DNA of 64,000 bases from Chryseobacterium indoltheticum (GTDB lineage Bacteria > Bacteroidota > Bacteroidia > Flavobacteriales > Weeksellaceae), in the NCBI RefSeq assembly GCF_003815915.1, contig NZ_CP033929.1, positions 3,658,001 through 3,722,000 on the forward strand. Direction: 5' to 3'. The notes beneath the pieces are model-generated. The model saw only the letters and a list, made by a program, of their open reading frames with translations, was not told the DNA's origin and made no database searches. This document shows, one piece after another, positions 8,946-61,131 of the stretch. The position numbers and the translations under genes are program-made. Numbering within the stretch: position 1 is the stretch's first letter; each line of letters opens with the position of its first letter.

Positions 8946-9511
8946 TATAAAATTAAATTGTTAATATATAGATTATCAGTTTTCAATATGATTGTTAATA
9001 ATCTTTGAAACAATATCAAAATTTCTGCCAAAAACTTAACAAAAACCCAACCCTATATCAAAATCAGTGTTAAACTTCAAAATTTAACTATTTTACGAAT
9101 AAGGTTTTTGAGGTTGGGTGAAGGAAGCTTGATGTTGGAGGTATTGAATTACCCTCCTTTGGAGGGGTGGCGAAAATTCGGAAGAATTTTTGACGGGATG
9201 GTTCAGAATACGAAAAAAAACTCGCTACAACTTTATTTGAAACAGAGAACCGCTTTCTTAGCCCCGATGGGAACGGCATCCTTTTTTGTTTTTTTTGGTG
9301 AAGGAAATCAGGTTCGGGAAAAACAAAAAAGATATAGTGGACAGCGGGAAATAGCTTCTTATTTAAGTTGGAGAGTTTGAGGGTTTGAGAGTGAGAGAGT
9401 TTGAGTATATAGAGATTCTTCACTGCGCTTTCGCTTCGCTCTGAATGACTGGATTTATTTATTCTTGCTCGTTTAAGATTGCTTCGTAGCTTTCGCTTCT
9501 CGCAATGATAC
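8946..9511. repeat. non-coding stretch of repeat-derived sequence
   Basis: About 570 bases without a credible gene. The part at 9411-9510, read on the minus strand, holds two related motifs. TCATTGCGAGAAGCGAAAGC ends near 9509, followed by ACGAAGCAATC. TCATTCAGAGCGAAGCGAAA lies near 9433-9452, followed by AGTGAAGAATCT. These look like dispersed intergenic repeats. The part at 9228-9365 contains GC-richer segments (CCCCGATGGGAACGGCATCC, GGACAGCGGGAAATAGCTTC) that I associate, from memory, with interspersed flavobacterial repeats. The 141-residue open frame here has repeat-derived composition and is not annotated. Confidence 0.55.
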
Positions 9512-52119: not shown

Positions 52120-52545
52120 ATGTCTTATCTCAAAATTTATATCCATATTGTCTTTTCAACAAAAAATAGAATTCCATACTTTAGCACATTAGAAAAGCGT
52201 ATTAAAGTTTGGAGACATATTAAAGAAAACGCAACAGAAAAAGGAATTTTCATGGATATAGTCAATGGATATTCTGATCATTGTCATTGCTTAATTTCTT
52301 TAAGCTCAAATCAAAACATTGAAAATATTGTTCAGTTAATAAAAGGTGAGTCTTCTTATTGGATTAATAAAAATTGTTTGACGAAAGAAAAATTTGCATG
52401 GCAAGAAGAATATTTTGCGGTTTCTGTTTCAGAATCAATGGTTGAACAAGTTCGAAATTATATTAAAAACCAACATATTCATCATCAGAAGAAAACCTTT
52501 GAAGAAGAATATCAAGAGTTTAGAGAAAAATATAATTTTATGTAG
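52120..52545 (+). CDS. REP-associated tyrosine transposase (IS200/Y1 family)
   Basis: A 141-residue Y1 transposase. The HUH motif is His54-Cys-His56 in YSDHCHCLISL, and the likely nucleophile is Tyr114 in VRNYIKNQHIHHQ. The start reads YIHIVFSTKNRIPYF, typical of this family, and WQEEYFAVSVSES precedes the Tyr helix. Two REP elements flank the gene as inverted copies. Its stop codon TAG (52543-52545) is the first triplet of REP copy 3. This fits domesticated RAYT proteins that move or maintain REP elements. It appears intact. Confidence 0.92.
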   Translation: MSYLKIYIHIVFSTKNRIPYFSTLEKRIKVWRHIKENATEKGIFMDIVNGYSDHCHCLISLSSNQNIENIVQLIKGESSYWINKNCLTKEKFAWQEEYFAVSVSESMVEQVRNYIKNQHIHHQKKTFEEEYQEFREKYNFM

Positions 52546-57260: not shown

Positions 57261-57840
57261 AAAAAGTCTCCGGAACTTTTCCGGAGACTTATCAACCTAA
57301 ATTAACAAACTTGTAGAATACTATTCAAAGTATTTATGAAAAACTCCACCCTTTCACTTATTATAAAGTTTTAACTTTATAAGTAACCTAAGGGGCATTT
57401 ATTATTTGAATAAATTATTTAAAATTGATTTAAGGCACCTGTTACAGAGCCTTTCAGCTCTGTAAAGATGACACTTAGGTTAATCAATTGTGTTTTTATA
57501 AGTTGTAATGAACTCGGCATACTTTTTTTCTCATCATTCGTGTTTTCAACCAATTTCAAAATTTTAAATTTATTTTAATAAATATTTTTAAAATCTCAAC
57601 TTATTTAGATAACAAATAAAAAACGTTCTAAAGAACTTTTTCGTTCGTTTCTATAATGTAAAAATAGGAAGATATGACAGTAATTACACTATAGACATTG
57701 TAGATGTATTTCGATCCACATGTAGATATTTATCTACAAAAAACTATTGAGTAAATCTTTATTTTACTGAAAGCAGATTGTAAATTCTGATTTTTAATAC
57801 ATAATGTTGAAAACTAAAAATTGGAGCTCTGCTAAATAAA
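57261..57840 (-). repeat. non-coding array, unit A
   Basis: First of three diverged copies. On the minus strand it ends in a good terminator hairpin AAGTCTCCGG/CCGGAGACTT (57264-57273, 57281-57290) plus T run. Other conserved boxes, given on the plus strand, are CCTAAATTAACA (57296-57307), TCTATAATGTAAAAATAGGA (57650-57669), ATTGTAGATGTATT (57697-57710), a palindrome TGTAGATATTTATCTACA (57721-57738) and GAGCTCTGC (57824-57832). A further hairpin ACAGAGC/GCTCTGT sits at 57444-57463. No convincing gene is present. Confidence 0.75.
57697..57738 (-). promoter_or_regulatory. repeated regulator-like site, unit A
   Basis: TGTAGAT half-sites at 57699 and 57721 start exactly 22 bases apart. The second belongs to a palindrome with arms TGTAGATA/TATCTACA. 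The same layout recurs in units B and C. Confidence 0.5.
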
Positions 57841-58320
57841 CAAAAAGCCTCCGAAAAACTCCGAAGACCTTACATCCTAAATTTACATATTTTTGAAATC
57901 ATTTTCTAGGACTATTATAAAAAAACTTTATCGTTTCCATTATCACAATTTTTTTTTAACTCTGCAATAAACATTTAGAAGATTATATTTCTCTTAAAAT
58001 CAATCTGTATTTTTAGTATAAAAAAAATTAATTTTAATGTTTAGTCGCTAATTATTTTTCATCCTTCACCCTTTTAAACTAAGTTTAAAACTTAATTAAT
58101 TATTATTTAAATAATCTGAAAATTCTGAGTTTATTTTGGATTAGCGACTTAAAAATTCTTCCATTCATCTTTATAATGTAAAAATAAGAAAATATTGAGT
58201 TTTATTCAGCCAATTTATTGTAGATGTATTTCGATGTTCTTATAGATATTTATCGACAACATAATTAAGTTGCATTCACATCTCTTACGTCGAGCTCTGC
58301 AAAAAAACAACTATTTAAAT
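57841..58320 (-). repeat. non-coding array, unit B
   Basis: Second copy. A CCTCCGAAAAACTCCGAAG stretch (57849-57867) takes the place of the hairpin but pairs poorly, so it is a decayed or altered terminator. Boxes, given on the plus strand, are CCTAAATTTACA (57876-57887), TTTGAAATCATTTTCTAGGA (57892-57911), TTTATAATGTAAAAATAAGA (58170-58189), ATTGTAGATGTATT (58217-58230), TATAGATATTTATCGACA (58241-58258) and GAGCTCTGC (58292-58300). Confidence 0.75.
58217..58258 (-). promoter_or_regulatory. repeated regulator-like site, unit B
   Basis: TGTAGAT at 58219 and TATAGAT at 58241 start 22 bases apart, with a looser palindrome than in unit A. Confidence 0.45.
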
Positions 58321-58700
58321 GCAAAAACCTCCGAAAAAATCCGAAGGTTCCATAACCTAAATTAACATGCTTTTTGAAATCATTTTCTAGGATTATTATA
58401 AAACTTTCTTTTCCGGTATATAGGACAAAGCCTTTCAGTTCCGTGATTATATTTACTGTTTTATTATTTCTTTTTGATTAAAGGCATCTTTCGTAGAGCT
58501 TTTCAGCTGTAATGATGACAATTATTTATTTAGTATTTTCAAAACCTGAACTTATTTTAGATTTACAAATTAAAAATCATTCCTAAAGAGATAATTTTTC
58601 CCGTATTTCTATAGTGTAAAAATAGGGAGATACAGGGGAATCTCCACAATATGTATTGTAGATGTATTATGACATGATTGTCGATATTTATCTATAAAAT
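58321..58700 (-). repeat. non-coding array, unit C
   Basis: Third and shortest copy, next to the response regulator gene. The terminator-like stretch ACCTCCGAAAAAATCCGAAG (58327-58346) has a T run on the minus strand but an imperfect stem. Boxes, given on the plus strand, are CCTAAATTAACA (58356-58367), TTTTGAAATCATTTTCTAGG (58372-58391), TCTATAGTGTAAAAATAGGG (58608-58627), ATTGTAGATGTATT (58655-58668) and TGTCGATATTTATCTATA (58679-58696). The remaining 20 bases before the regulator stop show nothing. Confidence 0.75.
58655..58696 (-). promoter_or_regulatory. repeated regulator-like site, unit C
   Basis: TGTAGAT at 58657 and TGTCGAT at 58679 start 22 bases apart, as in units A and B. Confidence 0.45.
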
Positions 58701-58720: not shown

Positions 58721-59365
58721 CTAATGTTGATTTTTGATCAGTTCAGCCAAATCAACAATGTTCTCGATATGTAGTTTATCAAAAATCCTTTTTTTAATCG
58801 TGCTTATCGTGTTTTGTTTTACGTTCAGATTATTTGCAATTTCGAGATTACCATATCCTTTTGCGTACATTTCCGCGATTTCCAGCTCCCTTTCCGTAAG
58901 CTTTTGCAAAGGATTAATGATGCTTCGGTTGTGTAAAGAATCAATCAGTAAATTCTGTGTAATTGAGGAAATATATTTTCCGGTTTCATGAATTTTAAGA
59001 ATTGCTTCTTTTATCTCTTTTTCTTCACTCATTTTACTGAGGAAGCCGTTTGCTCCGGCATTAATATATTTTATAGACTGTATATTTTCATCAACTCCGG
59101 AAAAAACCAGAATTTTAATTTCTGGTTTCAGCGCTTTGATTTCAGCAATTATATTTAAGCTGTTTCCGTCCGGGAAAATAGCGTCTATTACTACAATTTC
59201 TATTTGCTGCACCCCTACCGTTTCTAAAACTTTCTTTAGAGTGGATGCGTGAAAAATTTCGCCTTCAAAACCAATTTCTTCGATAAGAAATTCTATACCT
59301 TGCCTTATGAGACTATGATCATCGGCAAGTAAAAAATTAATGGTTTTAGTTTCTAAATTATTCAT
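58721..59365 (-). CDS. LuxR/NarL-type response regulator
   Basis: A 214-residue regulator. The receiver domain has the acidic pair Asp15-Asp16, the phosphorylation site Asp61 in VVIDAIFPDG, Ser near 95 (VFSGVDE) and Lys in FLSKMSEE. The NarL/FixJ helix-turn-helix is at the C-terminus (LTERELEIAEMYAKGYGNLE, then IANNLNVKQNTISTIKKRIF). Its start overlaps the kinase stop by four bases (ATGA), so the two are co-translated and form a cognate pair. The repeat array lies directly downstream. Confidence 0.94.
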   Translation of the reverse strand: MNNLETKTINFLLADDHSLIRQGIEFLIEEIGFEGEIFHASTLKKVLETVGVQQIEIVVIDAIFPDGNSLNIIAEIKALKPEIKILVFSGVDENIQSIKYINAGANGFLSKMSEEKEIKEAILKIHETGKYISSITQNLLIDSLHNRSIINPLQKLTERELEIAEMYAKGYGNLEIANNLNVKQNTISTIKKRIFDKLHIENIVDLAELIKNQH

Positions 59366-61131
59366 TTATTGATATTCAAATTAATAGTAAAACGTACTGT
59401 TGTACCGACATTTTGTTCGCTGTCTACCGAGATATTTCCAGAATACAATTCTACAATCTCCTTACATAAGCTTAAACCTAAACCTGCGCCCAAATTTTCA
59501 ACCCCTTCAGATAAAACTCCCTGATAATAAGGCTCGAATATTTTTTCGAGATCAGATTTAGAAATACCAACCCCTGTGTCACTTATTGTAGTCATCAGAG
59601 AAACATAGCTTTCATCAACAGATTCAGCTTTGGTTACGACCTTAATCTCTCCGTTCTCAGTAAATTTATTTGCATTGGCAAGTATATTCATAAAGATCTG
59701 ATTAATCTTCGTATTATCAGAATACACTTCAATTTCCGGATCAATATTTTCTTCAACAATAAATTTATTATTTCTTGTTTCAATGTATGGTTCTATTGAG
59801 TTTAAAATAGAGGTCACTTCGTTTTTAAGATTAAAAACTACAGGAACAAGATGGTTTTCTACATGTTGATTTTTGGTATATTCTAAAATCTGATTTGCCT
59901 GCATCAATAAAGTTTTGTTGGTAAAACTAATTGACTTTAAATATTCTTTAATACTATCGTCATTGGTTTTTTTATCAATCTTTCTGATAAAAATGCCGAT
60001 AATCTTCAGAGGCGAGCGCAATTCGTGGCTCAGCATTCCTAGAATTCTGTTTTTAAAATTAAGGTTTTCTTTAATTTGCTTATTGGCTGCTTTCAGCTGA
60101 TTCTCGTATACAAATGCAATTCTTGTCAGATACATAATTAATATGGAAACGATAAACATCAAAGCCATTGCCCCCAAAATCAGATTTGTTCTAATCTTAT
60201 TATTTTCAGAATTTAGGAGAGCATATTGCTTTTCAAGATCAGCTTTAGAATCTTTAATCGCAAAATCATAGATATTCATTACGCCATTACTATACACCAG
60301 AAGATTATTAAAAATGGTATAAAACTTATTGGCGTCATTTTGTTTTCCAGCAACCTGCACCTGCATTTTTTTTATTTCACCAGAATAGTGATTTTGAACA
60401 AGGCTCATAATACTGTCCATATCTGCTTTTATGGCAGCGGCTTCAGGTATTTTACCTTTATTTACAGTAATGATCGTACTTTCTTTACGCACTCTTTGCT
60501 TTCCTGTGATGGCGTCTCCCAAACGACCAAAAAGTCCTTTTTTCTTAATAGTATCTGTAATCGTTTTTGTTTCTACTTGAAAATCATATTTATCCAGATT
60601 GTAATTGCCATCATATTTTTTAATAGAAGGTATAGAAGTTGGAGCCCTAAAATTTGATTTTGTAGAATACTGATAAGTAGAATCAATCAACGTCTTTAGG
60701 TTTTTACTTCCTAGAGAATCATTTTTTTTAAATTTTAATATATTTTTTAGCCTCGGATATTTAGACTCATATCGATTGATGTTATCTAAATTTTTACCAA
60801 GTTTATCTAAGGACACAAAATAGGAATTCAAATATTTTTCGTCAGCCTTAGTTAAATATTGCTGAAGAAAATCCTGAGCATTCAAAAGCTCTTTTCGAGA
60901 ATCATCTGTTAAGTTTTCCAGAGAAAGCACTTCCTTCAGTTGATTTTCTATAAATGCTAAATTTTTTCTATTGATAAATTCGTTATAAAAAAAAGCTGCA
61001 ATAATAAGCTGTATTAATAGAATACAAAAGATAAGAGAGTAGTGAACAATTTTTCTGAATCTAAAATTCAATGATTTTGGACGGTCTTCTTTTGATTTCA
61101 TATACATGTATTTAAAGCTTTTTACAATCAT
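59362..61131 (-). CDS. membrane sensor histidine kinase
   Basis: A 589-residue kinase. Two membrane helices (about 31-49 and 316-335) enclose an extracytoplasmic sensor region of about 265 residues, rich in Lys and helix-forming, which I cannot assign to a named domain. After a coiled segment comes the phospho-acceptor His369 in GMLSHELRSPLK. The ATPase domain has N (MNILANANKFTENGEI), G1 (ISDTGVGISKSDLEKIF) and G2 (GAGLGLSLCKEIVEL) boxes. The start is uncertain: Met11 (MKSKEDRPKS) is an alternative. It is the first gene of the two-gene operon. Its signal is unknown. Confidence 0.93.
   Translation of the reverse strand: MIVKSFKYMYMKSKEDRPKSLNFRFRKIVHYSLIFCILLIQLIIAAFFYNEFINRKNLAFIENQLKEVLSLENLTDDSRKELLNAQDFLQQYLTKADEKYLNSYFVSLDKLGKNLDNINRYESKYPRLKNILKFKKNDSLGSKNLKTLIDSTYQYSTKSNFRAPTSIPSIKKYDGNYNLDKYDFQVETKTITDTIKKKGLFGRLGDAITGKQRVRKESTIITVNKGKIPEAAAIKADMDSIMSLVQNHYSGEIKKMQVQVAGKQNDANKFYTIFNNLLVYSNGVMNIYDFAIKDSKADLEKQYALLNSENNKIRTNLILGAMALMFIVSILIMYLTRIAFVYENQLKAANKQIKENLNFKNRILGMLSHELRSPLKIIGIFIRKIDKKTNDDSIKEYLKSISFTNKTLLMQANQILEYTKNQHVENHLVPVVFNLKNEVTSILNSIEPYIETRNNKFIVEENIDPEIEVYSDNTKINQIFMNILANANKFTENGEIKVVTKAESVDESYVSLMTTISDTGVGISKSDLEKIFEPYYQGVLSEGVENLGAGLGLSLCKEIVELYSGNISVDSEQNVGTTVRFTINLNINK

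Follow-up and report, generated by a model that had tools for sequence, protein, structure and literature searches.

Candidate sponge small-RNA genes behind a two-component response regulator in Chryseobacterium indoltheticum

GacS/GacA with RsmX/Y/Z (BarA/UvrY with CsrB/C) couples a LuxR-type response regulator to several small RNAs with repeated unpaired motifs. The GacA site is TGTAAG-N6-CTTACA, according to the accessible part of PMC4950607. In Vibrio, the gene for QrrT, a LysR regulator, lies directly upstream of the gene for QrrX, a sponge RNA pairing with a multicopy small-RNA family; the pair was found through Hfq and has one predicted pairing region (accessible part of PMC9732341). 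LisRK of Listeria controls the cluster lhrC1-4 and the distant copy lhrC5, whose RNAs pair directly with mRNAs via CU-rich sites, and the accessible part of PMC12101431 describes no sponge role. In Bacteroides, likewise a member of the Bacteroidota, the RbpB/FopS/GibS system includes an RRM protein and small-RNA paralogues with pairing sites close to start codons; the accessible part of PMC11697453 describes neither a sponge nor a response regulator.

Here, a locus of Chryseobacterium indoltheticum (genome of 4.25 Mb on a single contig; G000) is compared with these systems. The window is the whole 64,000-nt stretch of this genome that was analysed. As at GacA-controlled genes, the upstream site is an 18-bp palindrome, here the predicted operator TGTAGA-N6-TCTACA, which differs in sequence from the site in the accessible part of PMC4950607. 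Unlike in Gac/Rsm, the presumed RNAs lie directly behind the regulator gene, the operators are paired 22 bp apart, the repeated motif matches an RNA seed, and CsrA (PF02599) was found in 0 of 12 genomes (control matches in 3 of 14 named genomes). As with QrrX, the sequence is complementary to a second small RNA at its seed, this partner being itself a putative RNA. Unlike QrrX, the units are multi-site and multi-copy, and Hfq was not found in any of 12 genomes. The arrangement read from the sequence, tandem copies plus one distant copy, is LhrC-like. FopS, as described in the accessible part of PMC11697453, resembles the seed RNAs reported below rather than the units. No description of these RNAs in Chryseobacterium or its family was found in open-access PMC text. 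We propose, with a probability of roughly 60%, that the response regulator turns on sponge RNAs with multiple sites, which titrate small RNAs directed against start codons.

Layout of the locus

On the minus strand, a histidine kinase gene is followed by a LuxR-type response regulator gene and three tandem units, the last ending at 57261. A convergent DUF3108 gene also ends at 57261, the far edge of the array. Solved-structure relatives of the regulator, the proposed activator of the units, are VraR, DevR, NarL and EvgA. The parts of each unit are a pair of 18-bp operators with 22 bp from one to the next, a -7 box whose offset from the operator start is 72, a body, a 3' box and a terminator. 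The features are as follows, with bits giving minus-strand scores of a 40-nt operator-pair matrix.

59362..61131, minus: histidine kinase gene, upstream of the regulator gene; 589 aa, HisKA and HATPase_c (Pfam)
58721..59365, minus: response regulator gene; 214 aa, Response_reg and GerE/LuxR-type DNA-binding domain (Pfam)
58657..58696, minus: operator pair of unit 3, closest to the regulator gene; 28 bits
58617..58624, minus: -7 box of unit 3, TATTTTTA, offset 72
58321..58610, minus: presumed transcript of unit 3 (putative start), terminator 58321-58351
58356..58369, minus: 3' box of unit 3, CATGTTAATTTAGG on the minus strand
58219..58258, minus: operator pair of unit 2; 45 bits
58179..58186, minus: -7 box of unit 2, TATTTTTA, offset 72
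57841..58172, minus: presumed transcript of unit 2 (putative start), terminator 57841-57871
58059..58071, minus: eroded motif of unit 2, GGGTGAAGGATGA, corresponding in alignment to ACACACATGATGA in relative G018; pairing predicted at -13.5 kcal/mol
57876..57889, minus: 3' box of unit 2
57699..57738, minus: operator pair of unit 1, most distant from the regulator gene, with the perfect palindrome TGTAGATAAATATCTACA; 47 bits
57659..57666, minus: -7 box of unit 1, TATTTTTA, offset 72
57261..57652, minus: presumed transcript of unit 1 (putative start), terminator 57261-57291
57531..57543, minus: candidate sponge motif of unit 1, ACACGAATGATGA, one A>G with G-U pairing kept; predicted -28.6 kcal/mol with the seed
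57481..57493, minus: second, weaker motif of unit 1, ACACAATTGATTA; predicted -14.6 kcal/mol
57296..57309, minus: 3' box of unit 1

A direct-repeat search returned a 105-nt block three times (57637-57741, 58157-58261 and 58595-58699; the second and third copies 70-71% identical to the first) and a 52-nt terminator block three times (57263-57314, 57843-57894 and 58323-58374). Whole units are 61, 63 and 64% identical in pairwise comparison. The three diverged copies of the original prediction are therefore real, as is the terminator or terminator-like stretch that it saw at the minus-strand end of each unit. Its boxes recur in the stated order: the palindrome is the first operator (58679-58696, 58241-58258 and 57721-57738), ATTGTAGATGTATT is the second, 22 bp on, and T.TATA.TGTAAAAATA is the -7 promoter box, at offset 72 in all three units. 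The constant spacing that it described applies to these three boxes, which are the upstream ones in minus-strand reading. The CCTAAATT..ACA box does recur in each unit, and its position had to be revised to the 3' end, just before the terminator. The array lies between the DUF3108 and regulator genes as predicted; its boundary was moved to 58696, 24 nt from the regulator stop codon.

The window -7 boxes differ from TAnnTTTG. The three window units have a 3' box resembling ATGTTAATTTAGG in common with four units from two near relatives, and CCTAG..AATGATTTCAAA precedes the 3' box in several units. The longest ATG frames in the window bodies are 33, 21 and 12 codons, none shared, in line with the earlier reading that no coding frame is common to the copies. 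The fold of full-length unit 2 is of ordinary stability (z -0.51). Neither the window units nor 18 unit loci matched any Rfam 15 covariance model at gathering scores. The sole window match at gathering score is a Flavo-1 RNA (RF01705) at 9256-9355 on the plus strand (73.3 bits). Elsewhere in the window, a 141-aa frame (52120-52545, plus strand) presumably resembles an IS200/REP-associated transposase.

Linkage of the units to the response regulator

Relatives of the regulator were sought in 59 genomes, 53 of which gave some match at E 0.001. A first set of 34 best-match loci was read alongside the window. A second set comprised 80 named loci, the best 80 of 136, mostly from Chryseobacterium, with Epilithonimonas, Kaistella, Elizabethkingia and a few unclassified genomes; the closest regulators among these best 80 are those of Chryseobacterium sp. 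BGARF1 and YIM B08800 (89% identity). Locus L088 and model R1 were left out.

A unit lies behind the regulator gene in all 81 loci, the 80 named relatives and the window. It was located by matrix in 79 and by eye in two, L195, where the operator overlaps the regulator stop, and L204, with 20-bp spacing. The first operator lies within 230 nt of the regulator gene in 80/81 (78 by matrix plus L195 and L204); at the exception, L176, the unit is 3.5 kb away. Among the 79 matrix loci, 66 have one unit, 8 have two, 3 have three, and one locus each has four and five. Frames beyond the units vary in length and strand between loci, so the linkage is to the regulator.

The operator matrix gave 142 forward matches above 18 bits in 115 downstream regions (two locus sets with overlapping genomes); reversed controls of these regions gave nothing above 12 bits and one place above 10. 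The near-palindromic form of the operators also gave matches on the opposite strand, 74 places above 18 bits, and in the window plus-strand matches at 57699 and 58219. Since the matrix was trained on the regions it scored, a matrix-free pattern for the operator pair served as a check. The pattern was found in 101 of 118 genus genomes, against one control match; it is strict, so the other 17 are not taken as lacking units. In other genera of the family it was found in 11 of 84 genomes, again with one control match. Eight of these 11 were read: a regulator homologue (54-69% identity) stands beside the operator pair in all eight, and the motif described below occurs within one mismatch in seven, L245 being the exception.

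The -7 box stands at offset 71-72 in 99 of 100 units, against 3 of 298 arbitrary slots, and a terminator-like stretch was called for 98. At least 9 of the 100 bodies are probably shortened by early terminator calls, and two have no call. The operators, the -7 box and their spacing are thus conserved in related genomes, a point that the original prediction had left to be checked. It offered tandem small-RNA genes or a regulator-held repeat array; operators, promoter box, terminator and a body lacking any frame common to the copies in each unit, with operators tracking the regulator in 81/81 loci, favour both at once, the units being probable small-RNA genes. Bodies are hardly alike by BLAST beyond the nearest relatives. 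A search with unit 3 matched 27 of 60 genomes; clear unit matches occurred in G001, G018, G082, G064 and G080, and many others covered just a 26-nt terminator stretch.

Two further places in the window genome were rejected as units. One (G000:C1:4045675, L031) has the perfect palindrome TGTAGATGTTTATCTACA alone, with no evident second operator and a downstream 127-aa frame that looks HU-like by eye. At the other (G000:C1:194908) the palindrome lies within apparent coding sequence.

A repeated body motif and its complementary elements

The top de novo 8-mers of the 100 bodies assemble to AAAACACAAATGATGAAA. Its 13-nt core occurs exactly 47 times in 29 bodies, 100 times in 57 bodies within one mismatch, and 163 times in 75 bodies within two. 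Corresponding counts are 0, 0 and 3 in reversed bodies, 0, 0 and 1 antisense, and on average 0, 0 and 2.15 in 20 shuffles; the motif is strand-specific in the bodies. No core copy was found in 43 bodies within one mismatch or 25 within two, a set that includes the probably shortened ones.

Folding places the motif mostly in unpaired sequence (0.65 unpaired against 0.45 elsewhere; higher in 49/55 units). Flanking stems scoring at least 10 occur at 16 of the 163 motif copies, against 0-2 with shuffled flanks. In one sub-clade, a 12-bp stem carries the motif in its loop; 8 of its 12 pairs have changed on both sides, in an alignment of 13 of 16 rows that were all chosen for having the stem. Its covariation score was reached by 0 of 500 shuffles; the number of further pair types was not beyond chance (98/500). 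The motif includes ATGATGA, and copies also occur at start codons of some frames. Six window-genome genes that start with it (within one mismatch) have no common Pfam function. At L071, L121 and L128 the motif stands at a similar-looking gene junction with a different hairpin beside it, in an arrangement opposite to that of the seed RNAs.

The 13-nt core is complementary to the seed of an element of about 55 nt, U7-CAUCAUUUGUGU-U5-terminator, that is present in multiple copies. This element, which the original prediction did not include, appears to be a partner RNA family. All 60 genus genomes searched contain the exact core, each in 3 to 19 copies, against three control matches in total. The seed-RNA layout, read on the opposite strand, is T-run, TCATCATTTGTGT, T-run, hairpin and T-run. 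Loci were chosen by eye. Of 51 exact sites in five genomes, 44 were read, leaving 5 unit sites and 2 others; 30 of the 44 and 6 of 8 exact sites of the window genome have the layout, 36 in all. Set A2 comprises 33 of these 36, three near-identical loci having been dropped. The window-genome copies are as follows.

G000:C1:2450595, 2765134, 3034881, 3726315, 3951587 and 1711145 (respectively L069, L070, L072, L073, L075 and L068), antisense: candidate seed-RNA copies (T-run, CATCATTTGTGT, T-run, terminator)

A longer 21-nt core, TTTTTTCATCATTTGTGTTTT, occurs within one mismatch in 28 of 29 family genomes (1 to 10 matches each); some of these matches, for instance in G000 and G242, are sponge sites read in reverse. 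It was found in 0 of 167 genomes of the order outside the family, with three control matches in all. The sequence T[AT]nnTTTG lies at -70 to -8 of 19 of the 36 seed-RNA loci, against 4.25 expected; since just 19 have it, some loci may be 3'-UTR pieces or silent. Copies L069, L070, L072, L073 and L075 have no Rfam match, and at E up to 0.1 the 20 seed-RNA and unit loci searched gave just three tRNAs and a sub-threshold Phe_leader in L144. One seed-RNA locus (L075, L122, L131, L137, L150 and L158) has a 5' extension, CGCCTTGAATGAGGGAACAAGTCAAGG, that is nearly identical in six genomes and may fold into a hairpin.

The one-mismatch motif copies carry 53 substitutions, non-independent by descent, of which 36 keep G-U pairing with the seed (33 A>G and 3 C>T) and 17 break pairing. 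A predicted pairing site of -13 kcal/mol or better is present in 90 of 94 bodies against 24 of 94 shuffled, and two or more in 79 against 9. Of 60 genomes, 24 contain the motif variant ACACAAGTGATGA (three control matches), several of them at the regulator-linked unit and others at further sites, so that sponge-seed covariation could not be demonstrated with it.

In the window, unit 1 has the two predicted sites listed above. The best site of unit 2 (-16.3 kcal/mol, reached by 0 of 60 shuffles) lies elsewhere in the unit than its eroded motif. Unit 3 has no pairing site beyond shuffles (41/60 as good), and the stretch in which relatives have the motif is missing from it. A fourth, unlinked unit (G000:C1:4186152, L032) has the operators, a TAAATTTA box at offset 71 by eye, and at least six predicted sites of -20 to -26 kcal/mol. 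Genome G008 also has an unlinked unit with the motif. With unit 1 strong, unit 2 weak, unit 3 siteless and the unlinked unit site-rich, the linked array appears partly degenerate as a sponge in this genome, and the sponge load probably resides largely in the unlinked fourth unit.

Proposed circuit and competing explanations

In the proposed circuit, a signal would lead the kinase to phosphorylate the regulator, which would bind both operators of the 22-bp-spaced pair, upstream of a -7 box of the Bacteroidota type. Each unit would be a stand-alone small-RNA gene whose promoter is turned on by the adjacent regulator. The repeated, mostly unpaired AAAACACAAAUGAUGAAA sites of the resulting sponge RNAs would pair with the U7-CAUCAUUUGUGU-U5 seed and capture seed RNAs encoded elsewhere in the genome. 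The seed RNAs appear suited to cover start-codon regions rich in A, and sponging may thus free the translation of genes whose starts are A-rich and read AUG AUG; the kinase signal would then relieve repression of these targets. Operators, promoter box, linkage to the regulator, motif and complementarity come from the comparison, and the causal steps built on them are inferred. The fuller analogy, a Gac/Rsm-like system whose main output is sponge RNAs against family-wide anti-start-codon small RNAs, with CsrA replaced by an RNA family, is put forward tentatively, at somewhat less than even odds.

The regulator-controlled RNAs may instead titrate an RNA-binding protein in the manner of CsrB, the ACACAAAUGAUGA repeats being protein sites and the seed complementarity secondary. 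Repeats in loops and single strands do resemble CsrB/RsmZ architecture, and RbpB, an RRM protein of Bacteroides, binds paralogous small RNAs (accessible part of PMC11697453). A single RRM_1 protein was found in 9 of the 12 genomes, the window's included, and neither CsrA nor Hfq in any of them; an RRM protein may thus serve as a helper or be a rival target. Against protein titration stand the failure to find CsrA and Hfq in these 12, the A>G-dominated drift (33/53), which pairing with a U-rich seed tolerates, and the occurrence of the exact complement as a multicopy element of its own. In the comparison with the Gac/Rsm RNAs, whose defining traits are CsrA and GGA repeats, GGA proved depleted here (165 in 89 bodies, last 40 nt excluded, against a mean of 248.8 and a minimum of 233 in 20 shuffles), as is AnGGA (59 against 101.8), and GGAGG words among the enriched body 8-mers look like terminator stems. 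Protein titration is considered unlikely.

A somewhat weaker explanation is that the units are tandem small RNAs under the regulator that act directly on mRNAs or are diverging in function, the motif being a relic in this lineage. The weak or missing sites of window units 2 and 3 fit a relic, as does the different 3' box shared with two near relatives. Strong predicted sites persist, however, in unit 1 and in the unlinked unit of the same genome, and core copies within two mismatches occur in 75 of 100 bodies across all loci, which makes a relic improbable.

It is very improbable that the array is regulator-binding DNA without transcripts, serving regulator titration or autoregulation: conservation is highest in the operators, which are repeated as many as five times, but the fixed -7 box, the terminator-like stretches and the strand-specific body motif argue against it. 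The least probable explanation is that the repeated ATG ATG A sites encode small peptides or leader peptides, since the window units have no common frame, although the motif contains ATGATGA and the longest ATG frames average 23.5 codons per body (maximum 154) against 18.3 in mononucleotide shuffles.

For the sponge reading, the comparison supplies a complete, testable circuit of sensor, regulator, predicted operators, candidate sponge RNAs and, as their conserved partners, a set of RNAs sharing a 21-nt core. That core is a simple handle for target finding in the bacterial family, which includes soil, plant, fish and hospital bacteria. Such a circuit would bear on how small RNAs of Bacteroidota work without the usual helpers.
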